The notes under the pieces are model-generated. The model saw only the letters and a list, made by a program, of their open reading frames with translations. It searched no databases and was not told where the DNA came from. Made by a program: the position numbers and the translations under genes. Shown one piece after another: positions 26,240-52,347 of a DNA stretch of 64,000 bases; position 1 is the stretch's first letter, and each line of letters begins with the position of its first letter. The DNA lies in contig NC_015578.1 in assembly GCF_000214375.1 (NCBI RefSeq), forward strand, positions 3,968,001 through 4,032,000, written 5' to 3'. Source of the DNA: Treponema primitia ZAS-2 (lineage in GTDB: Bacteria; Spirochaetota; Spirochaetia; Treponematales; Breznakiellaceae).

Positions 26240-26606
26240 TGCTAAAAATAATCCCTAAACCGCTTATTGCATTGACAACATTTTTTATGCCAGCTATTTT
26301 TGCGGCAATAGTTCCATAAAGAATAAGTTTCAATCCAACATGATGTATAATATCTGGTTTATTATCTTTATATATTCGTAGTAAATATAGGAATATATTG
26401 AACTCTTTAAATATATTCTGGATCGATCGTGGTTTAGGCAAATTAATAAAATTCAACCCCAATGATTCTATTTTATCTTTATTCCCAGTATCATAACTTA
26501 TTATTGTAACATCAAACCCACTATTTTTTGCGGCAATAGCGATTTCCTTTCTATGGGAAAGAAAAAACCAGTCTACAATTACAACAATAAAGAGTTTTTT
26601 ACTCAT
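26232..26606 (-). CDS. Glycosyltransferase family 4, N-terminal part of a split gene
   Basis: A 124-aa N-terminal GT4 domain: VVDWFFLSHRKEIAIAAKNSG, DIIHHVGLKLILYGTIAAK and NAISGLGIIFSNE, then a stop. In intact enzymes of this group the SGLG motif is followed by residues like those encoded in the next frame (KTIILKALKFAHKN). A one-base shift at the AATGAATAA junction (26232-26239) would fuse both. It overlaps the ATP-grasp gene upstream by eight bases. Confidence 0.7.
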   Translation of the reverse strand: MSKKLFIVVIVDWFFLSHRKEIAIAAKNSGFDVTIISYDTGNKDKIESLGLNFINLPKPRSIQNIFKEFNIFLYLLRIYKDNKPDIIHHVGLKLILYGTIAAKIAGIKNVVNAISGLGIIFSNE

Positions 26607-27648: not shown

Positions 27649-27668
27649 ATATTTATCTCGATTCAAAT

Positions 27669-33561: not shown

Positions 33562-34652
33562 TTGTCAAATATTTCCAAATAAAATTGCTGCAATTTTTTT
33601 ACAGCCTGAATAATATTATATCCGGATTTAGTTACCTGGTCATACATATCATGCCGTATAAATCCATCCTGATATACCAACAAACGAGTAACCCATATAC
33701 TAATTTGGTCAATAGGCAGAAATTCTACCAAATCGGTAATTTTAGTCTCTCTTGTTATAGTATTTGACAATAAACACGGAAGACCCATAGCCTGCGCTTC
33801 GATTACCACACCCGGAAGTCCTTCCCACAAAGAGGGTAAAACAAATATATCACCAGCCTGCATCAAATCAGGTATATCATCTCGAAATCCAAGTAATTGA
33901 ACGGCATTGTCTATTCGCAATTCAGATATTTTTTTAACCAATAATTCAAGCATGTTTCCCTCACCAGCAATTAGCAATACAGCCCGAGGGCACAATTTTA
34001 AAAAACCAGCGAAAACATCCAGAAGAAATGATTGATTTTTTATATTACTTAATCTTCCTATATGAAGAATAACAAAATTACTGTCAATATTTAATGTTTT
34101 TCGAATTACATCTCTGGATTTTTTATTATATATTAACCTGCTTATATCTCTTGCATTTGGGAAAAGAATAACTTCATTATTTATTATGGCTTTCTTTCCG
34201 AATAAGGCCGATCCTGCTTCACTTGAACACGCCAACATTTTAGTTGTAAACATACGCAGCAAAGGACGCAACAACCGTTCTAGCAGAGAAATATTTTCTC
34301 TTGCATTTCTTGAATGAACAATTCTGATTGGTACACCGCATAGCCATGCTATAAAAACATCAAAAAACACTATGGGTGTCGAATGATGAATATGTATCAT
34401 TTTATATTCTTTATGTTTTAACAGTATAGACATTAAAATAAAAGTGTTCATAATAACATTTTGCGTTCTCATAGGGCGCCGAAAAATGTGAGATCCTAAA
34501 GCAATTGCTTCCGTTTCATAATAATCATTATAAGTTGTTATAAGAAAATCAAACTGGATCCTTGTTCGATCTATATTTCTATAATAATTCATGATTGTTG
34601 TCTCAGCGCCTCCGCAATTCAGAGATCCAATAATATTTAATATGCGAATCAT
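33549..34652 (-). CDS. Glycosyltransferase family 4 (367 aa)
   Basis: A GT4 enzyme with LNCGGAETTIMNYYRNID, IHIHHSTPIVFF, VHSRNARENISLLERLLR, FPNARDISRLIY, ILHIGRLSNIKNQSFLLDVF, and the donor site PSLWEGLPGVVIEAQAMG with both glutamates. It transfers a sugar to the lipid-linked oligosaccharide. Its start overlaps the polymerase-like gene by four bases and its end overlaps the next glycosyltransferase by 13, so all three are tightly coupled. Confidence 0.92.
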   Translation of the reverse strand: MIRILNIIGSLNCGGAETTIMNYYRNIDRTRIQFDFLITTYNDYYETEAIALGSHIFRRPMRTQNVIMNTFILMSILLKHKEYKMIHIHHSTPIVFFDVFIAWLCGVPIRIVHSRNARENISLLERLLRPLLRMFTTKMLACSSEAGSALFGKKAIINNEVILFPNARDISRLIYNKKSRDVIRKTLNIDSNFVILHIGRLSNIKNQSFLLDVFAGFLKLCPRAVLLIAGEGNMLELLVKKISELRIDNAVQLLGFRDDIPDLMQAGDIFVLPSLWEGLPGVVIEAQAMGLPCLLSNTITRETKITDLVEFLPIDQISIWVTRLLVYQDGFIRHDMYDQVTKSGYNIIQAVKKLQQFYLEIFDKCQK

Positions 34653-35821
34653 GATATATATCCAGTGTAATATTTAACCCTATCGGACATGTAAAAAATT
34701 GAACAATAAATTAAGTATAGATAATTAATATATTCTACAAATGGCCTTTGATACATAGTTCCAAATAATATTAGTAAAAATGCAATAAGTGTTTTTTGAA
34801 AACCAAGATAACTAAATGCGATAAAGGAAACCATAAAACAATATATACAAAAAAAAATAAATCCATATCGTAATATAATATTTTTGTATGATGATGATCC
34901 ATCTCGAAATATATAATAATCAGCTGTTTTACTGTCTATACCCCAAAAATAATTATTGGTTTTTTTATATCTATTATACCCATAATCAAAAAATTGATTT
35001 GTCCTATTGTCACCTATTAATTTTCCGTTTTTTATTTCCAATCTGCGGAAAGTATAATTTTTAACAAATTCATTTTCATTAAATACATATAAAAACAAAA
35101 TTGATATGATTAAAAGTATAACTATTTTATACTTCACCTTTAAAAATAATACAATATATATAAACATTAGCAAATAAAATGCAAATGATAAAGAAAGTAA
35201 ACCTGCAATTAAAATAGGAATATTGGCTTTTCTTTTTATAGTAAATCCATTAGCAATGAATAATATACTACACGCAGTACCTAGTTGTCCTGGTTCCGAA
35301 TAATAAGCACAAAACCTCAATACATTAACAACATTAGGGTGGATAAGGAAAGGAAAAGCATTATAGCTGTAGTCTCTTGCAGGTATTGATATTATTATGT
35401 TTGGAATTTTAATCCTAATAAAATATACCAAAATGTATATAACAATTGATGGTATAAGCATTATAGAAAATAATATTAAATATTTTCTAAATGTATTTTT
35501 TAGAAATATTGGTGAAGCTATAAATAAACTCCAAAATGCTAATGCAAGTCCAAAATTCATATTAGTGTTTTTAAGTGAAACTATTAAATACAAATAAAAT
35601 AATATCGAAATACAAATTCCATTTTTTTTATTTGGTGCAAAGTTAAAAATAAAAATAGCCGAACAGACAACTATAGAATATTTATATAATAAATTATTCC
35701 ACGTATAAAATGGCTGCCCTGTAAAAAAAAGAAAAATGACAAATATCCATTCAAGTATAGACTTATATGAAACATTTAATATTTTTATTTTTCTAAATTT
35801 AAAATATAGAAAATTATTCAT
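34649..35821 (-). CDS. O-antigen polymerase-like membrane protein (Wzy candidate)
   Basis: A 390-aa highly hydrophobic protein with about ten to twelve predicted membrane segments (for example WIFVIFLFFTGQPFYTW and LILFGTMYQRPFVEYINYLY). A large loop in the middle contains AYYSEPGQLGTACS and a second hydrophilic part carries WGIDSKTADYYIF. Sequence identity between Wzy proteins is very low, so the call rests on topology and on its place between glycosyltransferases, together with a separate Wzx flippase at 38967. It would polymerise repeat units in the periplasm. Confidence 0.75.
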   Translation of the reverse strand: MNNFLYFKFRKIKILNVSYKSILEWIFVIFLFFTGQPFYTWNNLLYKYSIVVCSAIFIFNFAPNKKNGICISILFYLYLIVSLKNTNMNFGLALAFWSLFIASPIFLKNTFRKYLILFSIMLIPSIVIYILVYFIRIKIPNIIISIPARDYSYNAFPFLIHPNVVNVLRFCAYYSEPGQLGTACSILFIANGFTIKRKANIPILIAGLLSLSFAFYLLMFIYIVLFLKVKYKIVILLIISILFLYVFNENEFVKNYTFRRLEIKNGKLIGDNRTNQFFDYGYNRYKKTNNYFWGIDSKTADYYIFRDGSSSYKNIILRYGFIFFCIYCFMVSFIAFSYLGFQKTLIAFLLILFGTMYQRPFVEYINYLYLIYCSIFYMSDRVKYYTGYIS

Positions 35822-38966: not shown

Positions 38967-40277
38967 TTATAGATCAGCTTCTAATTTAAAGCCGTTGTTA
39001 ATTAATAAATAAACCATTAAAGAAAAATATATAAAATAATTAATCGCATATCCCAACATAATTCCTTGCATGGCTATCAAATTACTCAATAAAATTGATA
39101 GAATGATTTCTAATGAAGAAAAAATAATTTCAGTACTTATCAAAAGTTTTGCCATGGCTTTAGCGTGCATAAGATAGGCAATTAGCCAGCTTGCCACTTT
39201 AAAAAAATCTCCAATGAGCCTCCAAAAAAGTAAATTAGACATTTCATAAAATTCAGAAGAAAACAAAATGTCAATTATTAGAAATCTATTAAAATAAACA
39301 CTACTTAAGCCTACCACTAAACATGGAATAATAACTTTACAAGCCGTTTTTATTTCGCGTTTTATACTAACCGCGCTAGATAGTTCGGATAATTTAGGTA
39401 AATAATAAACACTAAAAGATGATGTAATTATCATTAAATATGCATGGGACAGTCTATTTATACCTTCCCACCACCCAGCTGCCTGCATTGAAAAATTATC
39501 AATTATATACCTCCTGAGTATAAGCTGTGAAACCGGTGTACAAAAGGCTGAAACTAAAGTCATCAGAGAAAAACGAAAAAAATGCGCAGCCTTTGACTTA
39601 TCAAACCTGTTCCAAATATAATTTTTTGATAGATAAGGAACATTCGCTTTTTTAATTAAAAAAAGAAGAATAATAAATACAAAGCTTTGACTAGTCACTG
39701 TATTTATCAAAGCGCCATTCACACCAAACGGAATAACTAAGCATAATGAAAGACATAATCCAATGATACTTGATATGATTGAAATTTTTACATATAAATT
39801 GAATTGTTTATATCCATTGATAATGGCAAGTAATAAAGTATTACCAACATAAAAACTTAATGCTAATCCGAATATAATAAATATAAAACTATATTTTGTA
39901 TCAAGTAATATTTTAAAAGCAAGAAATCGAGATGTCAGTATTAAAAGTAATCCACAGATAAAGCTTAAACTGAGAGTTATTTTAACTGCAGTACCAATAT
40001 ACGCCCTAACAGCATCTGTATCATCTTTGTATTGAGCTATATATTTTATGACTCCAGTTATAATTCCTCCAGTTGCAATAGCCATTATTATGGAACTAAA
40101 ATTGTTAAGTTGGCCAACAAGGGCTACTCCAGTAGGGCCAATAATTACAGCCACTACCTTAACGCCAATAAACCCAGATGCCATCTTAACTAATGTTGAA
40201 ATTGAAGTAAATGAAAAAACCTTTATGATATCTAATTTAAAAATCTTTTTTATTTTTCGTGAAATTCTATTTACCAT
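38967..40277 (-). CDS. Wzx-type O-antigen flippase
   Basis: A 436-aa polytopic MATE/MOP-superfamily protein with about twelve to fourteen membrane segments. The N-terminus ([39 protein letters not shown]) is typical of Wzx proteins of the WzxE kind. It moves lipid-linked repeat units across the inner membrane. Its start overlaps the stop of the aminotransferase gene by seven bases. Confidence 0.9.
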
Positions 40278-41371
40278 TGATTAACCGTATCAATTACATA
40301 TTGAATCTGATTATCTGTAAGCATTGGACTCATAGGCAAACTCAATTCTTCATCATGGATTTGTTCAGTAATGGGGAATGATTTATCATTCCATTCTATA
40401 TAGCATTGTTGTTTATGGGGCGGTATAGGATAATGGATTAAGGTTTGTATGCCATTTTTTGCAAGATATTCCTGCAGTTCATCTCTCCCCTTTGTACGAA
40501 TCGGAAATATATGAAATACATTATTGCTGTAGTCCATAACATTTGGAAGTATGATCTTTGAATTGTTAATGCCATTAATATACTTCTTAGCAACTGTTTT
40601 TCGTAAATTGTTATCTTCATCTAGGTATTGTAATTTAATAGCAAGTATAGCCGCCTGAATTTCATCAAGGCGGCTATTGCGCCCCAAATATTGAAAGACA
40701 TATTTCTTTGACGAACCATAATTAGCTAATGAATGTACCACATTAGCTAATTTCTTATCGCTAGTGGTTACTGCGCCAGCATCCCCCAAAGCGCCGAGGT
40801 TCTTTCCGGGATAAAAGCTGTGCCCTGCAGCATCTCCAAGAGAGCCCGTTTTCCGCCCATTAAATAAGCATCCATGGGCTTGGGCATTATCCTCTATCAG
40901 CTTTAGATTATAGTTTTTACAAATCTGCCCTACCTTTTCGGTATACGCACAACGTCCATACAAATGGACAATCATAATTGCCTTTGTTTTTTTGGTTATC
41001 GCAGCTTCAATTCTTGAATCATCAATTTGATAGGTGTTTATATCCGGTTCAATTAAAACAGGAACAAGTCGGTTCTCAGTGATCGCCAATATAGACGCGA
41101 TATAGGTATTTGCAGGGACAATTACTTCATCACCGGGAGAAATAACACCCAGTTCGATGTATGCTCGTAATATCCAGATGAGAGCGTCAAGGCCATTGGC
41201 AACACCAATAGTATATTGTGTTCCGATATATCGGGAATAATTTGCCTCAAATGCAGTATTTTCACTACCTTGTAAATACCAACCAGAATCTATAACACGG
41301 TTTACCACATTGTGGATTTCTTCACTGTATTTACCGGTTATATCTTTTAACGATAGAAAAGGAATATCCAT
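40271..41371 (-). CDS. DegT/DnrJ-type sugar aminotransferase (QdtB/FdtB-like)
   Basis: A 366-aa PLP-dependent sugar aminotransferase: [14 protein letters not shown] (cofactor phosphate), [33 protein letters not shown], the PLP lysine in [18 protein letters not shown], and [10 protein letters not shown]. These features match the 3-aminotransferases that work on dTDP-3-keto-6-deoxyhexoses after a QdtA/FdtA ketoisomerase. Two such ketoisomerase genes lie at 47961-48793, so a 3-amino-3,6-dideoxyhexose is a likely component. rmlA and rmlB, which would supply dTDP-4-keto-6-deoxyglucose, are not in the window. Confidence 0.9.
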
Positions 41372-41427: not shown

Positions 41428-42048
41428 TTATCTATTTAATAGTGTACTAATGTCATAAATATTATCTATAATTAAATCAGGCGTATATTCAAAAAGTGCT
41501 TCTCTTGATAAAAAACCATAACTTACTGCTATAGTTTTTAAGCCAAGTTCTTTTCCATTTAAAACATCATGACCAGTATCACCTATAAGATAATCATCTG
41601 AATGAATTGAACAATGGTCTTTTACTATTTCTACTTTTGTCATTTTTTGTTCTGTAATAAAAACATTTTCAAAATATTCTGATAATCCAAATTTTTCCAA
41701 TTGATTATATACCATGAAAGAGCTTTGGCGGGCCGTGACTAAATTAAGATTATAATCCGTCTTTATTTTCTCAAGAGTTTCTTCAACACCATCATAAAGT
41801 ACATCTTTTTCAAGATATTCAGAGGTCTCTATTAAATTCATCCATTTATTTTGAAAATAAAAAAACTCAGTTTCAGAATAATTAAATTTTTCTATAAGGA
41901 TTTTCTTATGATTTATTTTACTTCGTTTTAAATCCCAATACCCTGTAATTGTTAATTGCGATTGTGGAACAAGATATTGAAAAAGATCATAAAGCCTTTT
42001 TTGAGCATTAATTAAAGTTCCGTCTAAATCAAAAAATATCTTGCTCAT
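41428..42048 (-). CDS. HAD-family phosphatase
   Basis: A 206-aa haloacid dehalogenase-type hydrolase with motif I FFDLDGTLINAQKR, motif II LNLVTARQSS and motif III/IV YLIGDTGHDVLNGKELGLKTIAV. Length and cap region resemble phosphoglycolate phosphatase and sugar-phosphate phosphatases. In this cluster it may remove phosphate from a sugar made by the neighbouring transketolase pair. It stands 56 bases from each neighbour and does not overlap them. Confidence 0.85.
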   Translation of the reverse strand: MSKIFFDLDGTLINAQKRLYDLFQYLVPQSQLTITGYWDLKRSKINHKKILIEKFNYSETEFFYFQNKWMNLIETSEYLEKDVLYDGVEETLEKIKTDYNLNLVTARQSSFMVYNQLEKFGLSEYFENVFITEQKMTKVEIVKDHCSIHSDDYLIGDTGHDVLNGKELGLKTIAVSYGFLSREALFEYTPDLIIDNIYDISTLLNR

Positions 42049-42103
42049 ATATTCTCGAGTTTAATCTTGAAATGCAGCAAAGCAATCAATGTAAATGCAT
42101 CTA

Positions 42104-43045
42104 CTAGGGGTGGAGGCAATCCCTTTTGTCATTATAAATTATTTTGCATTTTTCATAAATATGTAGTGGAGACAATCCATACATTCTCTTTAAATCCTGA
42201 TGCCATCCATAATCATTACAAAAAGTATCATTAAATCCCATAATATCAAATATGACAGTAACACCTGCCTTACATAAAACTTCACTAACGGCACACCCCA
42301 ATCCTCCTATAACATTATGCTCTTCGACGGTAATAACCTTTTTCGTTTTCAGAGCAGATTTAATAATTGATTCTTTATCAATAGGTTTTATTGTTGACAT
42401 ATTAATAATTTCCGCAGTTATGTCATCTTTCTTCAACATTTCCGCAGCTTCAATTACATCTGCAATAATAGAACCTGTGGAGATTATTGTTATATCTTCC
42501 CCCTCAGACATCAATGTGCTTTTACCTATTTCAAATGGCGAGATACTTTCATATATTTCTCGCTCAAAAGCTTTCCCTAAACGAATATAAACAGGACCGT
42601 TATAATCTACACTTTTTTCCAAAACAACTGAAACTTCTTTTGGACTTCCGGGAGAAACTAATATCAAATTAGGTAATGCCCGTAAAGCCGCAATATCTTC
42701 AGTTGAATGATGAGTTGGACCAAGAGTATTTGCAATAACACCAGCAGCCAATCCAATTATTTTTACATTGCGTTTCTGAAGACATATATCATCACGGATA
42801 AATTCCAATGCACGGTAGGCCAAGAAACTATTAAGCGCATATACAAGGGGGATATATCCTTCCTTCGCAAATCCTGCAGATATTGCAATCATATTAGATT
42901 CAGCAATGCCAAAATCAAAAAATCTATCCGGGTATTTATTTTTTATTTTTTTATATTCAGATAAATCACTATCAGATACTAAAAATACAATTTTAGAATT
43001 TGCGCCTAAGAGATCATAAATATATTTTTCAAATACTTTTCTCAT
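42104..43045 (-). CDS. Transketolase, C-terminal subunit
   Basis: A 313-aa pyrimidine-binding half of transketolase: FDFGIAESNMIAISAGFAKEG with the catalytic Glu, LGPTHHSTEDIAALRALPNL, then the C-terminal domain VITVEEHNVIGGLGCAVSEVLCK. Together with the N-terminal half encoded upstream (four-base overlap) it would form a thiamine diphosphate enzyme that moves two-carbon ketol units. Split transketolases of this type occur beside carbohydrate clusters and may build an unusual branched or higher sugar rather than serve central metabolism. Confidence 0.9.
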   Translation of the reverse strand: MRKVFEKYIYDLLGANSKIVFLVSDSDLSEYKKIKNKYPDRFFDFGIAESNMIAISAGFAKEGYIPLVYALNSFLAYRALEFIRDDICLQKRNVKIIGLAAGVIANTLGPTHHSTEDIAALRALPNLILVSPGSPKEVSVVLEKSVDYNGPVYIRLGKAFEREIYESISPFEIGKSTLMSEGEDITIISTGSIIADVIEAAEMLKKDDITAEIINMSTIKPIDKESIIKSALKTKKVITVEEHNVIGGLGCAVSEVLCKAGVTVIFDIMGFNDTFCNDYGWHQDLKRMYGLSPLHIYEKCKIIYNDKRDCLHP

Positions 43046-43878
43046 AATTCCTCAAAATCTTTTTTAGTTATCCCCAATTGTTCAATAATGATATTCAATT
43101 CTTCTTCAATTGGTACTCTTCCATGCCAATTCTCTTTATCTTCGCATAATGGGATCCCCTTCCCCTTGATTGTATGCAAAATAATTGCGCGTGGTTTTAT
43201 CGGCAAATTGAATTTATCAACTTTCAAAACACTTATTAAATCATTATAATTATGCCCATTTGCTGAAACAACATCAAAGCCAAATGCTTCCAGTTTTTTA
43301 TCCAATGGATCAATATTCATTACTTCAGAGATTCTTCCATTAACTTGTCTGCCATTATAATCAATAATCCATATTAAATTATTTAATTTAAAATTTGTAA
43401 TCGACATTGCGGCTTCCCAAATACACCCTTCCTGACATTCCCCGTCTCCTGTCAAAACATAGGTTAAATGCGATGCTTTCTTTAATTTTGCAGATAAAGC
43501 TATCCCAACTCCAAAAGACAATCCATGTCCCAAAGATCCGGTTGCACCTTCAATTCCCGGGATTTTTGGCGTTGGTTCCGCGCCAAAAATTGTACCGGGT
43601 TTACAAAAAGTCATTAATGAATTCCATTGAAAAAATCCTGCCTCGCATAAAACATTATACAATGCCAATGCAGCATGACCTTTACTTAATATAAATCGAT
43701 CTCTTTCTTCCATTTCCGGGTCTTGGTTATTAAATTGTAATATATCTCCAAAATATAATGTGATCAAAATATCGAGCGCTGAAAGTGAAGATGTAATATG
43801 TCCACCTTTACCCAACCAACATAATTTTATAATTTTTCTCCTTAAATTAATTGCAATTTTATCTAAATCATTTTTCAT
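43042..43878 (-). CDS. Transketolase, N-terminal subunit
   Basis: A 278-aa thiamine diphosphate-binding half: GHITSSLSALDILITLYFG, LSKGHAALALYNVL, GSLGHGLSFGVGIALSAKL, and the ThDP motif LTGDGECQEGCIWEAAMSI followed by IIDYNGRQVNG. It is paired with the C-terminal subunit downstream through an ATGA overlap. Confidence 0.92.
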   Translation of the reverse strand: MKNDLDKIAINLRRKIIKLCWLGKGGHITSSLSALDILITLYFGDILQFNNQDPEMEERDRFILSKGHAALALYNVLCEAGFFQWNSLMTFCKPGTIFGAEPTPKIPGIEGATGSLGHGLSFGVGIALSAKLKKASHLTYVLTGDGECQEGCIWEAAMSITNFKLNNLIWIIDYNGRQVNGRISEVMNIDPLDKKLEAFGFDVVSANGHNYNDLISVLKVDKFNLPIKPRAIILHTIKGKGIPLCEDKENWHGRVPIEEELNIIIEQLGITKKDFEEL

Positions 43879-43923
43879 AATTTTATTACTTTCTTTTTAT
43901 AATTAATTATAGCGAAGCCACAA

Positions 43924-44799
43924 CTATTTATAACTCTCATAAGCTTCTTTTAACCCCTCATAATAATCTATTTTAATACCATCATAATTTTTTACTAACA
44001 GATTATTATTGTAAATCGTATTATGATATATTTTTTCATTTATAATATTTTCAATCATCAAATTTTTTCCACTTATTTTTATCAAAATATCAATTAATGT
44101 TTTTATTGATATATTCTGATCCGAAACAATATTAATTATCTTATCATCAATTTTCTTAAATAATGATTGGTAAATTACTCTTGAACAGTCAGATACATTG
44201 ACAAAAGACTTCAATTCATTACCGCCATTAAAAACAACTGGATTTTTATTTTCCCTAATATTCTTTATTACCGTCGGGATAATCCACATCTGAGGATCTT
44301 CAGGTCCGTAAAGAACACCCGATCGAAATATTTGATAGTCAATATTATTTTTTTTACAGAATGATTCTATTATTTTTTCACAAAATAATTTAGATGCCCC
44401 ATACATAGTATCTGGTTTTGTTTGTGTAGTTTCATCTATTAAATCATCATTTTTACTATTATATACGCTTATAGAACTAATAAAAATAATTTTAGTCGGC
44501 AGACAAGATAAATTTTCCAATAGGTAATTTGTGGTCATTATATTTTCTGCAACATTATCAACACAATCTAACGATTCGTTACTCTTTGGGCTAAATGCCC
44601 CCATATGTATAAGAACATCAATGTTATGCGGTAATTCATCTCTGCCATACGTATAATTTTTATGTATTATACAATTGTAACCTTCAATATTCTTTGAAAC
44701 TAACAAAAAAATTTTAATGGCATTACTTTTATACTGCTGTATATATTTTAATAAATTTTTCCCCAAAAATCCACTTGCTCCTGTAATTAGAATATTCAT
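43924..44799 (-). CDS. NAD-dependent sugar epimerase/dehydratase family protein
   Basis: A 291-aa extended short-chain dehydrogenase: NILITGASGFLGKNLLKYI, VLIHMGAFSPKSNESL, IIFISSISVYNSK, and the active-site TMYGASKLFCEKII (YxxxK), then FRSGVLYGPEDPQM. It probably acts on a nucleotide sugar as an epimerase or reductase; the substrate is unknown. It lies directly upstream (in transcription) of the split transketolase genes, so it may modify the same sugar. Confidence 0.85.
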   Translation of the reverse strand: MNILITGASGFLGKNLLKYIQQYKSNAIKIFLLVSKNIEGYNCIIHKNYTYGRDELPHNIDVLIHMGAFSPKSNESLDCVDNVAENIMTTNYLLENLSCLPTKIIFISSISVYNSKNDDLIDETTQTKPDTMYGASKLFCEKIIESFCKKNNIDYQIFRSGVLYGPEDPQMWIIPTVIKNIRENKNPVVFNGGNELKSFVNVSDCSRVIYQSLFKKIDDKIINIVSDQNISIKTLIDILIKISGKNLMIENIINEKIYHNTIYNNNLLVKNYDGIKIDYYEGLKEAYESYK

Positions 44800-44887: not shown

Positions 44888-45970
44888 TTATAGGTACTTT
44901 AATTTTCTATCCCCCGTTAATATAGGAAAATGTTTTTGAATAATTATTATTGGGATTATAGTTAATAACACATTTACTACTGATACTATCATTATAATCA
45001 TCAAATTTACTTCGATACCAATTATGTTTATAATTCTTAATAAATATCCGTTTAATAATTGATGGAATGCCAATATTATTACTGTTCCATTTGATAATAT
45101 TGTTATTATTTTGCTACAATTACAATATAACTGTGATAAGTTTATTGTCGATATTATTCCTACTATTCCAAATGTATAAAATAATAACCCATCTTTTCCA
45201 TATTGAAAATTATTAATATCTACTCTCCCATTATAATTTACGCCTAATATTATTAGCATATAACCCAATATTGCAATTAGAATTTTGATTAATACCTTCA
45301 ACTTATTTGCGTTTAAGTTATTTGTTTTTATTAAGTTTTTCATTCGTGAAATATTCCCAATGGCATAAAATGGAAATGCTAAAATCGCACAATCAATAGA
45401 TAGTATCAAGCGTTTACTTAGCAATATAAGCATGAATATAATAATAACATCTATCCCCATCCCCATTATATAATACTCAATCCTTTCCTTGACAATCATA
45501 AAAATTATTTTGTGAATTATTTTTACAAAAAATAGACCCCACAGAAACCATAATGGAGGAATAAGCATAATTGAATATGGTGTATTACTGCCTATCCCTA
45601 ATAACATTCCTATAATAGGTTTGCCTAGTGCTGATATAATTGATTCATCTACATATAATTCCTGATGACGTAAAAACACAGCTACAAACCAATATGTATA
45701 ATATAGACTGTATAACAATATATAGGGAATTATTAATACTTTTATTCCCTGTATTATCGTTTCTTTGAAATTCCTATTGTTTTTTTCTAAATAGCCAGAT
45801 ATAAAAAAAAATAATGGCATATGAAATGCCAAAATAAAATTATACATAGTTTCTGGAATCACCGTGTGTCCAAAAACCACCAACCATATTCCAAATGTTT
45901 TTGCGAAGTCAATCCATAATATTCGGGGAGGTTGTTGTGAGGGGGCAACAAGTCCCTTAACGATATTCAA
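44888..45970 (-). CDS. Acyltransferase family 3 membrane protein
   Basis: A 360-aa protein with about ten membrane segments. The N-terminal motif RILWIDFAKTFGIWLVVFGHT matches acyltransferase_3 proteins (the His near residue 35 is catalytic in the family), followed by FHMPLFFFISGYLEKNN. The enzymes O-acetylate sugars of capsules, LPS or Nod factors. The start overlaps the stop of the ATP-grasp gene upstream by four bases. It is distinct from the AlgI/SGNH acetylation system elsewhere in the locus. Confidence 0.9.
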   Translation of the reverse strand: MNIVKGLVAPSQQPPRILWIDFAKTFGIWLVVFGHTVIPETMYNFILAFHMPLFFFISGYLEKNNRNFKETIIQGIKVLIIPYILLYSLYYTYWFVAVFLRHQELYVDESIISALGKPIIGMLLGIGSNTPYSIMLIPPLWFLWGLFFVKIIHKIIFMIVKERIEYYIMGMGIDVIIIFMLILLSKRLILSIDCAILAFPFYAIGNISRMKNLIKTNNLNANKLKVLIKILIAILGYMLIILGVNYNGRVDINNFQYGKDGLLFYTFGIVGIISTINLSQLYCNCSKIITILSNGTVIILAFHQLLNGYLLRIINIIGIEVNLMIIMIVSVVNVLLTIIPIIIIQKHFPILTGDRKLKYL

Positions 45971-47037
45971 AATGTGATAACCTCTTGTTTAATTTCTTTT
46001 CTGGTCATTAATCGGGGCTTTGAATCCATACCCCGCAACCACAAAAGACCGTCTTTTAAAGGATTTATTTTCTTATTCAGCTTAGGGTACTCATTATATA
46101 ACGCCAAATCTTTAAATAATACCGGCATATTCAAGCCAGCCTGGGTAAAAAAAAGAATTGTTGTAAAAAATCGAGATATATTAATCTCAGTCGGATTTGG
46201 AATACCATCTTTATTATAGGTCAAATCAACACCAAAAATACCATGGGGTTTATCGGAAACCGCCTTTATTGATTTAATGGCTATTTCATCAACTAAGATG
46301 TCAGAACAGGTTTCACCTACCTTCGTAACACCGGTAATTCCAGAAGCGCTTCGGTTTCCATGTACCCATCCAGTCCTTTTCCTGGTTTGAGCCACAACCA
46401 ACTCACCTTCATACCATATAGATAACCAGGTTATGGTATCAGCGGTTAACATTTCGGCCGCAACAAAATCACCCCAACCATTATTTCGATTTATCCAGCC
46501 CCGCGCTAATTCAAAATCATTGGTCGGAATTGAACCTTTACCACCGCCGCCTATAGAGGCGGATCTGAGCCAAATATTTCCATCTTTATCGGATAATTTT
46601 TTAAAAGCCTTTTGCAGGTCATTCTCATTTTGTATCATTAAATTTTCAGGAACTGTAATTCCAGCCGATTTGAATCGCAAATACGATTTATATTTATGGA
46701 CACAAATGTCGATAACATCATGTTCAGGCATAAATGTTTTTACACCTAATTCATGGATATAATTTCTTAAAAAAGAAGCGTGATATATTTCTAGATCATT
46801 TTGAAAATGTATAAAATCCGGCTTCTCTTTTTTTATTATTTTTATTAAAACATCTTTGTAATCAGGTGAATTCGCATAAGGTATATAATATTTTCTCTGT
46901 GCATTTGATAAAACCAAATCTGTCGGTTCAGAACCTATTCCAATAATTGTTTCCTTTTTTTCCGATAATAACAATGAATTGATAACACCTTCAGATGGCG
47001 CACCTCCGGCACCACCGATTAATATTTTTTTTAACAT
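45967..47037 (-). CDS. Carbamoyl-phosphate-synthase-like ATP-grasp enzyme
   Basis: A 356-aa ATP-grasp protein: N-terminal Rossmann-type domain (KILIGGAGGAPSEGVINSLL, IIGIGSEPTDLVLSN), YKSYLRFKSAGITVPENLM at the start of the grasp domain, IWLRSASIGGGGKGSIP as the glycine-rich ATP loop, GDFVAAEMLTADTITWLSI and the metal site GVDLTYNKDGIPNPTEINISRF. The group ligates amines to carboxylates via acyl-phosphate. It is coupled by overlap to an acyltransferase gene, so the pair may decorate one sugar. Substrate unknown. Confidence 0.85.
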   Translation of the reverse strand: MLKKILIGGAGGAPSEGVINSLLLSEKKETIIGIGSEPTDLVLSNAQRKYYIPYANSPDYKDVLIKIIKKEKPDFIHFQNDLEIYHASFLRNYIHELGVKTFMPEHDVIDICVHKYKSYLRFKSAGITVPENLMIQNENDLQKAFKKLSDKDGNIWLRSASIGGGGKGSIPTNDFELARGWINRNNGWGDFVAAEMLTADTITWLSIWYEGELVVAQTRKRTGWVHGNRSASGITGVTKVGETCSDILVDEIAIKSIKAVSDKPHGIFGVDLTYNKDGIPNPTEINISRFFTTILFFTQAGLNMPVLFKDLALYNEYPKLNKKINPLKDGLLWLRGMDSKPRLMTRKEIKQEVITF

Positions 47038-47094: not shown

Positions 47095-47815
47095 TCACGA
47101 TTTTGCAATAATACAGATTTCACCTACAATATCAGGCATTTTCTCTCCAAGATAAAAAAATGCATCTATCATTTGATTAGTATAATATGTTTCTATTTGC
47201 ATATCAGAGAATGGTTTCAACCAATATCCTCCAGTAACAACCTCATCAAGCCCTGCTTTTATAAAGCATCCCGAAAAAGAATCTATTCCAAATATTCTTC
47301 TGTGTCCATGTCGTTTATCTTTTTCGCCAAAATCATCTAGCCTTGATAGAAGGCCCATTTGTACTGCTGTTTGCCGATGTAAGCTGTTTTTATTAGGAAC
47401 TGCAGCTAATATTACCCCTCGCCCCGTCTTTCTTTAGTCATTTTTTGCATGAACTCAGAATAGAAACCGGATCTAAAATATGCTCAAGAACATGTCCTAA
47501 TATAATATTATCATATTTTTCACTTACAGATGAATTAAATTCTTCAAATATGAAAGTTGCAGCGTTAATACCTGGATATCTATTTTTAATCTGATCGGTA
47601 AATATTGAACTCCCATCAACAACTGTATACCCGTCTGGGCGTATAGGATACAATTTATCTGTCATTATTCCTTCAGCAGGCCCTAGCTCAAGTATGTTTC
47701 CTGGCCTAAGATATCACAGGAATATTTTACAACAATATTCTTGCGTGATTTTGCTTATTCCATGTGAATAAATGGAATTCTTAGCTATTTTTTCCAATCT
47801 TTCTTTTTCTTCCAT
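47095..47815 (-). pseudogene. Degraded SAM-dependent methyltransferase
   Basis: Starting at ATG 47815 (after GAGGAG) the frame reads a class I methyltransferase with motif I ILELGPAEGIMTDKL, VVDGSSIFTDQI and HVLEHILDPVSILSSC. It is broken by TGA codons at 47714-47716 (after CKIFL) and 47438-47440 (a likely lost Trp), then a one-base shift within 47417-47437. Beyond it VPNKNSLHRQTAVQMG, HGHRRIFGIDSF and the end at 47095 follow in a single frame. The intact protein would have about 240 residues. Confidence 0.75.
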
Positions 47816-47960: not shown

Positions 47961-48398
47961 CTATATTTTTTTTAAATTTAAATTGGCCCGCCATTTTAAA
48001 AAACTTTCATAATCGCGGAGATAATCCATCTCATCATAAGCGTGAGAAGCCAGCACAAGGCAAACAGAACCAGATGAAAAGCTATCTAACTCCCGCCAGA
48101 TACCGGGAACTACTAATAAACCTTGATATGACCGATTTAGGGTGAATACTCGTTTAATATTACCGTCATTTAAGATGACATCAAAACTACCTGATGCCGC
48201 GACAATCAATTGTCTTAACTCTTTGTGGGCATGCCCCCCACGGGATTCTCCTCCAGGGATATCATATAAATAATAAATCCGTTGTACATTAAAAGGAACT
48301 TCTTTTTCATTTTCAACTACTGTCAAATTCCCTTTTTCGCGGTGATTTATTGGTAGTTCTATTATAGAACAATCATATACGGTAGTTATATTCGTCAT
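47961..48398 (-). CDS. QdtA/FdtA-like sugar 3,4-ketoisomerase (copy 1, 145 aa)
   Basis: A small cupin of the WxcM/QdtA/FdtA family: RIYYLYDIPGGESRGGHAHKE, LIVAASGSFDVILNDG, LVVPGIWRELDSFSSGSVCLVLASHAYDEMDYLRDYE. Members convert dTDP-4-keto-6-deoxyglucose to the 3-keto isomer before 3-amination. The metal-free active-site histidines GGHAHK are present. It overlaps the upstream paralogue by four bases (ATGA). Together with the DegT aminotransferase at 40271 it fits a Qui3N/Fuc3N-type sugar. Confidence 0.9.
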   Translation of the reverse strand: MTNITTVYDCSIIELPINHREKGNLTVVENEKEVPFNVQRIYYLYDIPGGESRGGHAHKELRQLIVAASGSFDVILNDGNIKRVFTLNRSYQGLLVVPGIWRELDSFSSGSVCLVLASHAYDEMDYLRDYESFLKWRANLNLKKI

Positions 48399-48793
48399 TT
48401 TCTTAACGACAAAAATTCAGTATAATTAAGAATATAATCATTTTTATTATATTCCACATTCGACACTATCAATGCTAAAGAATTAGTTGAAAAATTGTTT
48501 ATTTCTCTCCAGTATAATTTAGGGACGTACAAACCATAATACGATCTGTTTAAATTATATGTATTTTTTTCTTTTCCATCATCAATGATTACATCAAAAC
48601 TGCCGGATAGAGCTATGATAAATTCCTCATTTTTTTTATATGCATGTCCGCCACGGAATTCCCCACCGGGCACATCATAAATCCAATACGTCCGTTTTAT
48701 CCTAAAAGGGATCTGATTGTCATTTTCAAAAAAAGAAAGGTTTCCTCGTTTGTCTAATATTTTAGGAAGATCAATGATTTGAGGTTTTTGCAT
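48395..48793 (-). CDS. QdtA/FdtA-like sugar 3,4-ketoisomerase (copy 2, 132 aa)
   Basis: Paralogue of the next gene: RTYWIYDVPGGEFRGGHAYKK, FIIALSGSFDVIIDDG, LYVPKLYWREINNFSTNSLALIVSNVEYNKNDYIL. The second active-site histidine of GGHAHK is Tyr here (GGHAYKK). Since FdtA and QdtA differ at a His/Tyr pair that sets C4 stereochemistry, the two copies could make different epimers; a heteromeric enzyme is another possibility. It is the first intact gene of the minus-strand sugar cluster. Confidence 0.88.
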   Translation of the reverse strand: MQKPQIIDLPKILDKRGNLSFFENDNQIPFRIKRTYWIYDVPGGEFRGGHAYKKNEEFIIALSGSFDVIIDDGKEKNTYNLNRSYYGLYVPKLYWREINNFSTNSLALIVSNVEYNKNDYILNYTEFLSLRK

Positions 48794-48902: not shown

Positions 48903-49210
48903 TTATTTTTTAATAAGATAGACTAAATATCCTGGCAGAATGCAGAACCATGCAAAAAACCGTTTATGTCCTTTGTTCAGTTTTTTTATTGAAAGAACTA
49001 TTTTTTGTTTCGTTTCAAATGAAAATCGAATAAAATTGAGATAATTTTTTACTATTTCAGGAAAATATAAATGCATTTTTTATGGTATTTATTTATTACT
49101 TCCTCAAGATAGAATACCTGACCAGTGGAATGCAATCCTTTTTCATGTGTTGATGCGTGGTAGTTTCCATCATTTACAGACCTTTTTCGGTAAAGGCCTT
49201 TGCCTTGTAT
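48903..49210 (-). pseudogene. Relic of a polysaccharide-cluster gene
   Basis: On the minus strand a coding-like frame reads SVNDGNYHASTHEKGLHSTG and QVFYLEEVINKYHKKC. A one-base shift near 49075 leads into FPEIVKNYLNFIRFSFETKQ, KIVLSIKKLNKGHKRFFAWF and CILPGYLVYLIKK, ending at the TAA at 48903. No start codon belongs to it. I cannot name the family. It fills most of the 420-base gap between the first ketoisomerase gene and vapC and marks decay at the 5' edge of the cluster. Confidence 0.5.
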
Positions 49211-49215
49211 GCGGT

Positions 49216-49611
49216 TTATACCCAATTCTCTAATTTAAGTTTTCTAATTCTCTGAAATTCCTGCACATTATTTGTTACAAAAATATAATCCCGGCTTAAA
49301 GCCTGGGAAGCAAGCTGCATGTCATAAGGGCCTATAACTTCTCCATTCCGTTCCAACTCGGCCAGTATTATCCCGTAAATCTCTGCATCCTTAAGATCAA
49401 AAGGAATTATTTCAAATGATGTCAAAAAATCCCGTAAGGCATTTCTGTTTTTTTCGGGATAGGCGCTTTTGGCAGCCCCATATTCCATTTCAGCTATTGA
49501 TACAGCCGATATTTTTATCTCTGCAGGTTCATGCAGACTAATTTTCTCTATGATCTTTTGCGGCCGTTTATTAATTATATAAATGCAAATATTAGTATCT
49601 AATAAATACAC
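49216..49611 (-). CDS. vapC: VapC-type PIN-domain toxin
   Basis: About 131 aa. PIN-domain acidic residues: Asp in YLLDTNICIYIINKRP, Glu in VSIAEMEYGAAKS, Asp in IGPYDMQLASQALS, and late VTNNVQEFQRI. PIN toxins are Mg-dependent RNases, many cutting initiator tRNA. The start is taken at GTG 49611, four bases after the vapB stop, which places MYLLDTN at the N-terminus as in the family; the frame extends further upstream inside vapB. Confidence 0.92.
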   Translation of the reverse strand: MYLLDTNICIYIINKRPQKIIEKISLHEPAEIKISAVSIAEMEYGAAKSAYPEKNRNALRDFLTSFEIIPFDLKDAEIYGIILAELERNGEVIGPYDMQLASQALSRDYIFVTNNVQEFQRIRKLKLENWV

Positions 49612-49615
49612 GATA

Positions 49616-49840
49616 CTAAAAACGCTTCTGCATCGGAGGTTGATTTCTCCCATCAAAAAGAAAATCATCTGAAAATTCAGTTAGGCTTTTCTTAAATAAT
49701 TCCCATGGATCATTTTTCGGGAAAAGGACTATTGTATTGCCAATTTTATTGATACATAGCTCATCTTCATCAACTTGATATTCCTTGGGAATACGTATTG
49801 CCTGGCTATTTCCGCTTTTAAAAACCTTCGTCATTTGCAT
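49616..49840 (-). CDS. vapB: VapB-type antitoxin
   Basis: About 74 aa with an N-terminal AbrB-like DNA-binding fold, MTKVFKSGNSQAIRIPKEYQ, and a C-terminal toxin-binding tail with WELFKKSLTEFSDDF. It neutralises the PIN toxin and represses its own promoter. The ATG at 49840 is preceded by a GGCGGTGG stretch. The promoter at 49863-49891 overlaps an inverted repeat. Confidence 0.9.
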   Translation of the reverse strand: MQMTKVFKSGNSQAIRIPKEYQVDEDELCINKIGNTIVLFPKNDPWELFKKSLTEFSDDFLFDGRNQPPMQKRF

Positions 49841-49862
49841 TGTACCACCGCCTGTATTATTT

Positions 49863-49891
49863 AGTATATACAGGTGTGTATACAAAGTCAA
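49863..49891 (-). promoter_or_regulatory. vapBC promoter overlapping an inverted repeat operator
   Basis: Minus strand: TTGACT (complement of 49886-49891), 17-base spacer, TATACT (complement of 49863-49868). Within the spacer and -10 box lies GTATA-N10-GTATAC-type dyad symmetry (about 49864-49883, GTATATAC...GTGTATAC), a likely VapB binding site. The leader is about 16 bases. Confidence 0.6.
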
Positions 49892-49920
49892 GGGCCGCAG
49901 CTTGGCCAATTTCTTTAGGT

Positions 49921-49975
49921 TTCTCGATATATCGAGGATTTTCTCGTGATTGCTTGAATATTCTCGATATATCGA
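49921..49975. promoter_or_regulatory. Phased operator array upstream of abiE
   Basis: Two identical 15-bp palindromes, TTCTCGATATATCGA, occupy 49921-49935 and 49961-49975, exactly 40 bases apart. Midway, at 49941, a third TTCTCG begins a degenerate copy (TTCTCGTGATTGCTTGA). Three sites at 20-base steps would sit on one face of the helix. The array lies between divergent vapBC and abiE and just upstream of the abiE promoter; AbiEi-type antitoxins bind inverted repeats to repress their own operon. Confidence 0.6.
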
Positions 49976-49994
49976 AATTTTGTGTTTTTATCCC

Positions 49995-50023
49995 TTGTTT
50001 ATCTCCAGAAAGTATCGTATATT
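49995..50023 (+). promoter_or_regulatory. Candidate abiE promoter
   Basis: TTGTTT (49995-50000), a 17-base spacer and TATATT (50018-50023), leaving a short leader with CCGGAG before the ATG at 50043. The palindrome array ends 20 bases upstream of the -35 box. Confidence 0.45.
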
Positions 50024-50042
50024 TGTACTTACCGGAGATACA

Positions 50043-50633
50043 ATGATTAAGACCCATTTGATGGTTATGGATGAACTCGCAGGCTATGCTTCCCCCCAAG
50101 CGCGGCTTACCCGGCTTTTAAAGGCCGGCGCCCTGGTACAGTTGCGGAAAGGCCTCTTTGTGGACGATCCCGCAACTCCCCACCCGCCTATTGCCCCGCT
50201 GCTCTACGGACCTTCCTATATTTCCTTTCAGTACGCCCTGGCCGATGCAGGCCTTATCCCTGAACGGGTACGGGTGGTAACATCCGCAAGCTTCAATAAA
50301 AACAAGGACAAGGTGTTCCGCACTCCTCTGGGGGAATTCCGGTATTTCTATCTTCCCCCTACGGTGTATCCCTATGGCATTACCGTGCGGGAAGAGGCGG
50401 GATTACCCTATCTTATCGCTTCGCCGGAAAAGGCCCTCTGCGATATGGTCTATAAAAATCCGTCAATTACTTCCCTGAACGATATGGGGTCCCTGCTCCT
50501 AGAGGACTGGCGCATTGACCGCCAAGATCTCCGCAATCTGGATGGCGCCTTTATCCGCTGGATTGCTCCGCTCTACCGCAGAAAATCACTGCTGGCCCTG
50601 GCCGATTGGCTGGGCAAGGAAGTATACCAATGA
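50043..50633 (+). CDS. AbiEi-type antitoxin / transcriptional regulator
   Basis: A 196-aa protein with an N-terminal winged-helix segment (MVMDELAGYASPQARLTRLLKAG, LVQLRKGLFVDD) and the C-terminal AbiEi region (ISFQYALADAGLIPE, RVVTSASFNKNKDKVF, LIASPEKALCDMVY). AbiEi is the antitoxin of the AbiE system, which can stop phage and stabilise mobile DNA. ATG 50043 is chosen because it follows GGAG and begins directly at the winged-helix. The last codons overlap the toxin start (ATGA). Paired operators lie upstream. Confidence 0.88.
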   Translation: MIKTHLMVMDELAGYASPQARLTRLLKAGALVQLRKGLFVDDPATPHPPIAPLLYGPSYISFQYALADAGLIPERVRVVTSASFNKNKDKVFRTPLGEFRYFYLPPTVYPYGITVREEAGLPYLIASPEKALCDMVYKNPSITSLNDMGSLLLEDWRIDRQDLRNLDGAFIRWIAPLYRRKSLLALADWLGKEVYQ

Positions 50634-51508
50634 ACACCAAATCACCGGTACAAATAATGTTTGAGCAGTACCATTGTACTACTACCGAAGAACGCCGGGA
50701 CGCCCTCAAGGAGATTATTCAGGAAATCACCCTGGCAGCCCTTGACCGCGCCCATTTTTTTACCCACGCTGCTTTCTATGGAGGAACGGCCCTCCGTATC
50801 TTTCACCAGCTCGACCGTTTTTCCGAAGATCTGGATTTCAGTCTTATGGAACCGGACTCATCCTTTGACTTAGGTCTCTATCTGAACGCTGTCTGGGACG
50901 AGCTGGGATCATACGGTTTTGACATGACCGTAGAAACGAAAGAAAAGGTGACTGACACCGCCGTTCAGTCAGCCTTTATTAAAGGGGGAACCCTGCTTCA
51001 TCTTTTAAAGATAGGTTCCATCACCCCGCCGGTTCCCGGTGTTCCCCCAAATGAACTGATTAAGGTCAAATTTGAAGTTGATACGAACCCCTACCCGGGC
51101 GCTGGCTACGAAGTCAAATATGGCCTTATGCCGATCCCCTATTCGGTCCGGCTCTTTGACCTTCCATCGCTTTTCGCGGGCAAACTTCACGCGCTCCTGT
51201 ACCGCTCCTGGAAATCCCGCGCCAAGGGCCGTGATTTTTACGACTACCTCTGGTACCTTTCAAAGGGCATCCCGGTCAATCGCCGGTACTTAGAAGCCGG
51301 CATACGCCAGGGCGGGCACTGGGCCGGGCCGGAGCCTCTCGCCCTAAAAGATATACTCCGCTTGCTAACAGACCGCTTTTCATCGGTTGATTATAAGCAG
51401 ATAAAAAACGATGTGCTCCCTTTTATCAGGGACACCCGCCCACTGGACTTATGGAGCAAGGATTTTTTCATTTCCCTTTCACAAGAAAAGCTGCGCATCA
51501 CCCCTTGA
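50630..51508 (+). CDS. AbiEii-type nucleotidyltransferase toxin
   Basis: A 292-aa member of the AbiEii/AbiGii (DUF1814) nucleotidyltransferase family. The catalytic signature is FYGGTALRIFHQLDRFSEDLDFSL, with GG-T and D-x-D residues. Further conserved parts are KVKFEVDTNPYPG and PSLFAGKLHALLYR followed by KGRDFYDYLWYL. Toxins of this family modify tRNA or other targets by transferring nucleotides. It overlaps its antitoxin by four bases. It is more G+C-rich than the sugar cluster to its left. Confidence 0.9.
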   Translation: MNTKSPVQIMFEQYHCTTTEERRDALKEIIQEITLAALDRAHFFTHAAFYGGTALRIFHQLDRFSEDLDFSLMEPDSSFDLGLYLNAVWDELGSYGFDMTVETKEKVTDTAVQSAFIKGGTLLHLLKIGSITPPVPGVPPNELIKVKFEVDTNPYPGAGYEVKYGLMPIPYSVRLFDLPSLFAGKLHALLYRSWKSRAKGRDFYDYLWYLSKGIPVNRRYLEAGIRQGGHWAGPEPLALKDILRLLTDRFSSVDYKQIKNDVLPFIRDTRPLDLWSKDFFISLSQEKLRITP

Positions 51509-51555
51509 GCAACCTTTCCACGATATAGATACTTTCTGCATAAGTCAGAACGATT

Positions 51556-51957
51556 CTACCAAATATATTTTAATCCATCTTTTTTATATAATTCATTCTT
51601 GGTATCGCGGCTTACAAATATATAGTTATTGCGTATGCATTGATAAATCAGCATCCGGTCGAATGGATCCTTATGTTTTTCTTTTTGCGCTAAGGCAAAG
51701 CTTTCCAATGCTTCCACAGGATTTAACGGTATCAGTTCAAAGCCCATCTTTTTGCAATAATAGGGAATATCTTTTATATCAAAAGAGCTAAGAACTAATT
51801 TCCCAATGCTCTGTTTTAATGCCAGTTCCCATAATGATACGGCGCTTACTAAAATATCATTATTAGTATCTTCCAGTTCCTGTATAACTTTTTTTGATAA
51901 CTCATCGCTTTTCCCTATAGACCATAGGAGCGTATGGGAATCCAGCAGTAATTTCAT
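51556..51957 (-). CDS. PIN-domain toxin of a Phd-type module
   Basis: A 133-aa PIN protein: LLLDSHTLLWSIGKSDEL, VSAVSLWELALKQSIGK, HKDPFDRMLIYQCIRNN and IFVSRDTKNELY. It is probably an RNase toxin. This subgroup (COG3744-like, with HTLLW) is usually paired with Phd/YefM-type antitoxins, as here. Its start overlaps the antitoxin stop by four bases. Confidence 0.92.
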   Translation of the reverse strand: MKLLLDSHTLLWSIGKSDELSKKVIQELEDTNNDILVSAVSLWELALKQSIGKLVLSSFDIKDIPYYCKKMGFELIPLNPVEALESFALAQKEKHKDPFDRMLIYQCIRNNYIFVSRDTKNELYKKDGLKYIW

Positions 51958-52193
51958 TTTACAGCGAGCAATTCTTCTACGGTCATTTCAAAATCGGGCA
52001 TAAATTTCACGGTCATCTTTCCGTCCAAAATTCCTATTTTCCTCTTTTTAACTTTTTCTTCAACGTACGGGACAATCATAGCGACCGGTTTTTTGGCCCT
52101 GCCGTATAAAATCCCCACCGTGCTTCCCTGCCTCACTTCTTCAAGGACCTCTGAAAAGTGCGTTTTAACTTCCCCAACCGGCATTGCTTTCAT
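51954..52193 (-). CDS. Phd/YefM-type antitoxin
   Basis: A 79-aa antitoxin: MPVGEVKTHFSEVLEEVRQG, ILYGRAKKPVAMIVPY, then a basic linker and an acidic C-terminal tail for toxin binding (MPDFEMTVEELLAVK). The promoter's -10 box ends six bases before the ATG and there is no Shine-Dalgarno, so the message should be leaderless. Confidence 0.9.
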   Translation of the reverse strand: MKAMPVGEVKTHFSEVLEEVRQGSTVGILYGRAKKPVAMIVPYVEEKVKKRKIGILDGKMTVKFMPDFEMTVEELLAVK

Positions 52194-52199
52194 ATGTTT

Positions 52200-52228
52200 A
52201 GTATCGCTCTATTTTGTCAACTTGTCAA
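52200..52228 (-). promoter_or_regulatory. Leaderless promoter of the Phd-PIN module
   Basis: Minus strand: perfect TTGACA (complement of 52223-52228), 17 bases, GATACT (complement of 52200-52205), then AAACAT and the ATG at 52193. A second TTGACA lies eight bases inside the first (complement of 52215-52220), making a short direct repeat that may be part of the operator. The 120 bases to the left of the ATPase gene end (52229-52347) show nothing else. Confidence 0.6.
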
Positions 52229-52347
52229 GTATATGGTATGTCGCTTTCTCTGAGCAGTCTCAGGCCTTGCTGCAACGGTGATCCCACTCACCATAATAGC
52301 TATTTCTGTCTAGTTAAAAAGCCGGCGTCCCGGCCTGTACCAGGGCT

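Follow-up and report, generated by a model that had tools for sequence, protein, structure and literature searches.

Why a transketolase should be encoded amid genes for a surface polysaccharide is the question raised by nucleotides 41428-44799 of a 64,000-nucleotide stretch of the Treponema primitia ZAS-2 genome (from contig NC_015578.1; 'the window' hereafter denotes that whole stretch). Four uninterrupted open reading frames on its minus strand, at positions that agree with those of a preliminary description of the same DNA, encode a short-chain dehydrogenase/reductase (SDR), the N-half and the C-half of a split transketolase, and a phosphatase of the HAD family. That description had read the four genes together as a means of building a branched or longer sugar by C2 transfer, a chemistry that it considered foreign to standard O-antigen pathways.

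We lean towards a reading in which the SDR and the two transketolase halves constitute a dedicated two-chain transketolase and an accompanying oxidoreductase, which make a C2-branched or C2-extended precursor for a surface glycan. The N- and C-halves would form a two-chain enzyme in which the thiamine diphosphate (ThDP) chemistry is retained; this heteromer would transfer two carbons, as a ketol (or acyl) group, from a donor to a carbonyl compound that is not one of the usual aldose phosphates and is most likely a keto or aldehydo sugar activated by a nucleotide; reduction (or epimerisation) of the C2 adduct by the neighbouring SDR would follow, and the resulting C2-branched or C2-extended sugar would enter the polymer. 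We infer the donor, the acceptor, the order of the steps and the product; the basis for the reading is the open genes, their family, their clade, the retained catalytic residues, the lost substrate contacts, a recurrent reductase-family neighbour, and the other transketolases of the genome. If correct, it would describe a route to branched or higher-carbon surface sugars by way of transketolase chemistry, a class normally filed under central metabolism, and would serve as a warning for annotation, in that a transketolase encoded by two genes of a glycan cluster is not necessarily an enzyme of the pentose phosphate pathway.

Gene organization and the surrounding cluster

The Transketolase_N, Transket_pyr and Transketolase_C domains of a split-form transketolase are all present, and the Pfam scores of all four proteins exceed the Pfam cut-offs (Table 1), which rules out chance or mis-annotation of the four genes. 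The SDR displays a GASGFLG nucleotide motif and a Y133-x3-K137 pair. Transcription runs from an Acyl_transf_3 gene through the SDR, the N-half, the C-half and the HAD gene to a DegT gene, with 45 bases between the SDR and the N-half and 58 between the C-half and the HAD gene, while the two halves overlap by 4 bases (the TGA of the N-half with the ATG of the C-half), an arrangement as in coupled subunits. Coordinates, Pfam scores and gaps agree in bearing out that both transketolase halves, an epimerase-family gene and a HAD gene are adjacent and co-directional. Promoter-like sites were no commoner than in shuffled sequences (56, against a mean of 56.6).

The location of these genes inside a sugar cluster is likewise upheld by what lies on the same strand: glycosyltransferases, a Wzx-type flippase (PF01943, 45.1 bits; its match to NF011679 falls under the cut-off of that model), Wzz-like and SLBB export proteins, a UDP-sugar dehydrogenase, two ketoisomerases of the FdtA type, and an aminotransferase of the DegT family. 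A further gene of the cluster has a putative Wzy-like role (Table 1). The G+C content is 26-38% across 22-50 kb of the window and 48-56% outside it, except for a mixed stretch at 14-22 kb; because the value is so far below that of the flanks, the 22-50 kb region appears to be an acquired island. The genome as a whole gave three matches to FlaA (PF04620), against none in any of 14 control genomes, a result that points to a spirochaete host.

Relatives and their gene neighbourhoods

The search for relatives covered two phyla, that of the window and that to which a Lysinibacillus genome belongs (394, 398, 392 and 300 genomes, in partly overlapping sets), and the neighbourhoods of these relatives were labelled by us from translations and profile searches. 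Among 394 genomes of the same class, the closest relative of the N-half was found in genome G071 (57% identical), with the next at no more than 47% among the matches listed; 11 other genomes of the same family held no N-half above 43% identity among the matches listed. Profile searches with the C-half added G423 and G798, and then G1242, G1155, G1064, G1197, G1131, G1251, G1215 and G1179. The last of those searches placed 30 genomes over the threshold, of which 10 neighbourhoods (nine new ones and that of G423) were inspected; eight of the nine new ones were of glycan or envelope type, and one (G1002) was housekeeping. Scans of genome contigs and of viral contigs with the N-half returned one relative at 28% and one locus at 31%, respectively, and the best matches listed from plasmids and from a phage collection reached 45.4% and 44.7%.

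In a maximum-likelihood tree of 68 C-halves, gathered by their similarity to that of the window, the 12 pairs that we had labelled from context as glycan- or envelope-type formed a single clade spanning two phyla (support 100/96), within which the window, G071 and G798 made up a subgroup (100/99); an earlier tree of 57 rows agrees. Wide neighbourhoods were fetched for part of the 68 rows, one of which (L081) lies on a 3-kb contig. A 13th glycan-context pair, that of G056 (L045), has an SDR gene immediately upstream and DegT, nucleotidyltransferase and dehydratase genes near, and lies outside the clade on a long branch; it is counted among the 56 others in both the tree and the residue comparison below, and because of it the glycan-context label is not confined to one clade. 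The same G056 cluster also holds KAS III-like and acyl-activating-like genes (identified by eye) and two SDRs.

A recurrent feature of the clade is a reductase-family gene directly adjoining the transketolase pair, which was found, each time with a family match, in 11 of the 12 members: an SDR in eight and an aldo-keto reductase (AKR) in three. In G071, rfbF (386.5 bits) and rfbG (450.5 bits), each exceeding its cut-off, are followed in order by methyltransferase-like, HMGL-type aldolase-like and acetolactate-synthase-like genes and then by the N-half, the C-half and the SDR, and G798 repeats the core of that order from aldolase to SDR. The flanks of the G071 genes (L114) carry rmlABCD-like genes (by eye), two FdtA-like genes and a DegT gene, so that the window and G071 clusters share both an amino-sugar unit (the FdtA pair, and DegT proteins 67% identical) and a transketolase unit. 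G1242 has two consecutive SDRs followed by the N- and C-halves, and the first of these was the best match to the window SDR outside its own genome among the loci compared (26% over 258 positions). An AKR adjoins the pair in G1155, G1064 and G1197, with FkbH-like, MaoC-like and MBOAT genes near (some of them recognized by resemblance to L131). The corresponding loci L131, L132 and L133, in which a transketolase pair and an AKR accompany such genes, have the look of an envelope-modification locus. A radical-SAM gene precedes the pair and its SDR in G1251. From its family, its motifs and its position directly upstream of the N-half, the window SDR probably serves the transketolase as a carbonyl reductase or as an epimerase; family membership alone does not separate these activities, whether in the window or in the SDR and AKR genes of the other loci.

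The remaining neighbourhoods bear on a different explanation, namely local provision of sedoheptulose 7-phosphate by the pair for a surface-glycan heptose, by a GmhA/HldE or HddA route. G1131, G1215 and G1179 carry SIS-domain, SDR, HldE-like and radical-SAM genes ahead of the pair and its SDR, and G423 has SIS, HldE-like and radical-SAM genes, so that four clade members lie in clusters with a SIS-domain gene and an HldE-like kinase/nucleotidyltransferase; genes resembling GmhA and HddA are also present in the T. primitia genome itself, at C1:1.828 Mb (143 and 454 bits, each under its NCBIfam cut-off). Those genes, however, lie about 2.2 Mb from the window in contig coordinates, the part of the window's cluster proteins that was searched included no SIS protein or GmhA-type isomerase and no heptose kinase or nucleotidyltransferase of the ADP/GDP-heptose type, and eight of the 12 clade members show no SIS or HldE-like genes in the stretches inspected. 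Given in addition the loss of the residues presumed to contact substrate phosphate and hydroxyl groups (below), we regard local heptose supply as unlikely.

The view that standard O-antigen pathways do not use a transketolase needs qualifying, since 12 further glycan- or envelope-type pairs were encountered here and since extracts of one report (PMC13390465) describe an exopolysaccharide cluster of Actinoplanes missouriensis, wps-2, in which AMIS_56710/56720 are predicted to be a split transketolase. As described in those extracts, the wps-2 pair resembles that of the window in lying beside S-adenosylmethionine (SAM)-dependent methyltransferase and DegT genes, within a cluster that has Wzx, Wzy and Wzz-like genes; it is known from domain predictions, and the likeness to the window clade is one of description alone. 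That prediction was the only precedent for an exopolysaccharide cluster with a split transketolase found in the literature covered, which was partial, and earlier work on the subfamily may exist. The accessible text of PMC2650404 describes a two-gene transketolase of Brachyspira within the pentose phosphate pathway, and in that of PMC11766843 the enzyme is mentioned once, in the legend to a figure of precursor routes. The window pair belongs to a little-noticed branch of transketolases found in glycan clusters beside a reductase.

Catalytic and substrate-contact residues

Residues were numbered as in Escherichia coli TktA (the numbering was checked), and their roles, either in ThDP binding and catalysis or in substrate contact, are those that we presume from transketolase structures. 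The equivalents of the ThDP and catalytic residues H26, H66, D155, N185 and H261 are kept in all 12 clade members, including the window, and those of E411 and H473 in all 12 as well as in all 56 other rows. The canonical set of pentose-phosphate contacts (R358, S385, H461, D469, R520 and H100), in contrast, is not retained by the window pair, which keeps R358 and substitutes alanine for H461, leucine for D469, lysine for R520 and glutamate for H100. H461, D469 and R520 are each kept in none of the 12 clade members, versus 32, 23 and 47 of the 56 others, respectively, and H100 in four of 12 versus 62 of 63 others. S385 was likewise scored as kept in none of the 12, a status that is uncertain because the clade lacks one residue of the loop in question, which makes the alignment there ambiguous.

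A split transketolase of known structure, from Carboxydothermus hydrogenoformans (PDB 6yaj/6yak), displays the same two-chain organization as the window pair: the window N-half matches the N chain of 6yak at 226.2 bits, and a C-half profile built from four subfamily members matches 6yaj at 292.8 bits. It differs at the very positions just described, since the 6yaj chain has H, D and R at 461, 469 and 520, which are replaced by A, L and K in the window pair.

A housekeeping enzyme of the pentose phosphate pathway that lies in the cluster by happenstance would be another explanation, and by the preliminary description its own proposal would fail if the pair were the only transketolase of the genome and active in that pathway. 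That the pair is the only transketolase is excluded by a search of the genome with PF00456, which matched at four places: the window pair, two further split pairs, and a DXS. The second split pair adjoins a LacI-type regulator and ABC-transporter-like genes, and the third (C1:2996685) sits in an operon with TRAP-transporter-like genes. At positions 358, 385, 411, 461, 469, 473 and 520, where E. coli TktA reads RSEHDHR, the other two pairs read RSESDHR and RCEDNHR, and the window pair reads RLEALHK. Neither of the other pairs therefore carries the full canonical set, a point in favour of a housekeeping role for the window pair; but the latter departs most from the canonical set (its position 385 being uncertain), whereas the pair of the TRAP operon keeps six of the seven residues and has a sister in a genome of the same family (G348). 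The window pair lies, moreover, in an AT-rich island, and is without a close N-half counterpart in the 11 same-family genomes considered above. A housekeeping role for it is, in our estimation, very unlikely.

The substitution at H100, which we take to contact the C1 hydroxyl of the donor, raises a further alternative: that the donor is pyruvate rather than a ketol, and that an acetyl group is transferred, as in the acetyl- or hydroxyethyl-branched octoses. ThDP enzymes build the acetyl- and hydroxyethyl-branched side chains of such sugars. In the route to the branched octose yersiniose, YerE and YerF perform, respectively, a ThDP-dependent formation of a carbon-carbon bond on a nucleotide keto sugar and a subsequent reduction by an SDR, a sequence to which the route proposed here is akin. 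YerE, however, is of the acetolactate-synthase type and the window pair of the transketolase type; no YerE-type gene was seen in the window cluster, and to the acetolactate-synthase-like enzyme of G071 and G798 the genome has distant matches at best (133 bits), none of them in the window. Octoses branched at C-4 with acetyl and hydroxyethyl groups are reported from polysaccharides and antibiotics in extracts of PMC4753412, which together with the glutamate at the H100 position speaks for pyruvate; H100 is kept, on the other hand, in four clade members (G071, G798, G423 and G1131), and G071 and G798 already possess a separate acetolactate-synthase-like enzyme. A pyruvate donor appears improbable on these grounds. 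An obligatory link of the pair to the HMGL aldolase and acetolactate-synthase-like genes of G071 and G798 was also considered and rejected, the T. primitia genome giving distant matches to them at best (55 and 133 bits). Split transketolases specialized away from the pentose phosphate pathway are known from catabolism, in the form of AptAB (apulose 4-phosphate) and SqwGH (sulfofructose), and are likened to the window pair by description rather than by sequence.

Several observations weigh against a dedicated C2-transfer enzyme for a surface sugar. H461, D469 and R520 are lost together in eight of the 56 other rows as well (G056 and seven more), and the four of those seven that were inspected (L008, L014, L021 and L033) look catabolic or pentose-related; because the loss also occurs outside the glycan-context clade, it marks changed substrates, and not surface function as such. 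At the H100 position four members have H and another four L, whereas the window and the three AKR loci have E, so that donors may differ within the clade. The contexts of its members vary also (heptose-like, CDP-hexose, FkbH-like/MBOAT), and a reaction common to all is on that account not established. G423 has no directly adjacent reductase gene, no sugar nucleotidyltransferase lies beside the window trio of SDR and transketolase halves, the HMGL aldolase and acetolactate-synthase-like genes of the closest relatives are lacking in the window cluster, and the contexts described come from 10 inspected neighbourhoods out of a match list of 30 genomes, one of them (G1002) housekeeping.

The clade, the residues and the other pairs of the genome support the reading of the pair as a dedicated transketolase; the C2 transfer of the preliminary description is plausible but unproven, and its branched or longer sugar a putative product. 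A wider proposal, that the subfamily as a whole has moved away from sugar phosphates, transfers a ketol C2 unit to a nucleotide- or carrier-linked carbonyl, works with a paired reductase in Spirochaetota and Bacillota to make surface sugars branched or extended by C2, and that transketolase was recruited to glycan clusters at least twice, is offered tentatively, as a possibility that we consider rather less probable than the local one.

The phosphatase and other features of the window

Table 1. Features of the window discussed in the text, with the matches on which their assignment is based.
Feature	Positions	Strand	Size and matches
SDR, NAD-dependent epimerase/dehydratase family	43924-44799	minus	291 aa; PF01370, 99 bits
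Transketolase N-half, ThDP-binding	43042-43878	minus	278 aa; Transketolase_N PF00456, 114.8 bits
Transketolase C-half	42104-43045	minus	313 aa; Transket_pyr PF02779, 96.5 bits; Transketolase_C PF02780, 94.3 bits
HAD_2-type phosphatase	41428-42048	minus	206 aa; PF13419, 62.5 bits
DegT/FdtB-like aminotransferase	40271-41371	minus	PF01041, 336 bits
Two FdtA-type ketoisomerase genes	47961-48793	minus	PF05523
ATP-grasp-like (PRK12767-like) protein, amino-sugar module	45967-47037	minus	NF009402, 75.7 bits, below cut-off of 218
Methyltransferase-like remnants	47095-47665	minus	two ORF pieces, 87 and 75 aa
Wzy-like gene	34649-35821		role assigned by eye; Pfam search without match
DUF362 protein	27669-29126		
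RimK-like ATP-grasp protein	26599-27666		
PIN/AbiEii block	49210-52312		3.1 kb

The suggestion that the HAD phosphatase acts with the transketolase fared less well. Among the proteins of the loci compared, the window's own copies alone matched it, and of 247 genomes searched in the phylum two gave a match at E <= 1e-18, that of the window and G835; a search of 250 genomes of the class of G423, run without a positive control, gave no match, and the best plasmid match was 24%. The G835 relative (33% over 211 positions) shares its 7-kb contig with FdtA (202 bits), ATP-grasp-like, SDR, SAM-methyltransferase-like and DegT genes, and no transketolase lies on that contig. A comparable set is present in the window, with a DegT protein 48% identical to that of G835, a weakly similar ATP-grasp-like protein (27% over 132 positions), and a broken methyltransferase-like gene. 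Because the sole relative found for the phosphatase sits in a similar cluster, on a contig without a transketolase (one relative being thin evidence), the phosphatase probably belongs to the adjoining ATP-grasp/FdtA/DegT amino-sugar module and is not a partner of the transketolase. The FdtA pair and DegT, which we take to act in the formation of dTDP-3-amino-3,6-dideoxyhexoses, suggest a sugar of that kind as the product of the module. The methyltransferase-like pieces resemble remnants of one broken SAM-methyltransferase-like gene, and the shorter of them (75 aa) aligns over 80 positions, with 33% identity, to the methyltransferase-like protein that is intact in the G835 cluster.

A second polysaccharide cluster of the same genome (L108-L109; G000:C1, about 1.828-1.868 Mb) has rfbG and rfbH above their cut-offs, the GmhA- and HddA-like genes mentioned above and, by eye, rfbF-, rmlABCD- and Gmd/Fcl-like genes. 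The genome's one above-cut-off rfbG match lies there, at C1:1.85 Mb, beside rfbH and the rfbF-like gene, and the idea that the window cluster makes a CDP-sugar acceptor was accordingly rejected. A phosphoenolpyruvate mutase gene in the second cluster (398 bits, above cut-off) adjoins a ThDP enzyme that resembles phosphonopyruvate decarboxylase, and the cluster for that reason likely makes a phosphonate-bearing glycan.

Within the window, the DUF362 protein and the RimK-like ATP-grasp protein are also encoded inside the polysaccharide cluster. The PIN/AbiEii block comprises two PIN-domain genes, an AbiEii gene and an AbiEi-like gene (the last by eye), and has an inverted second copy of 99.5% identity at positions 4462-7564 of L112 (G000:C1, about 66.5-69.6 kb), which adjoins further genes of polysaccharide type; in contig coordinates the two copies are about 3.95 Mb apart.

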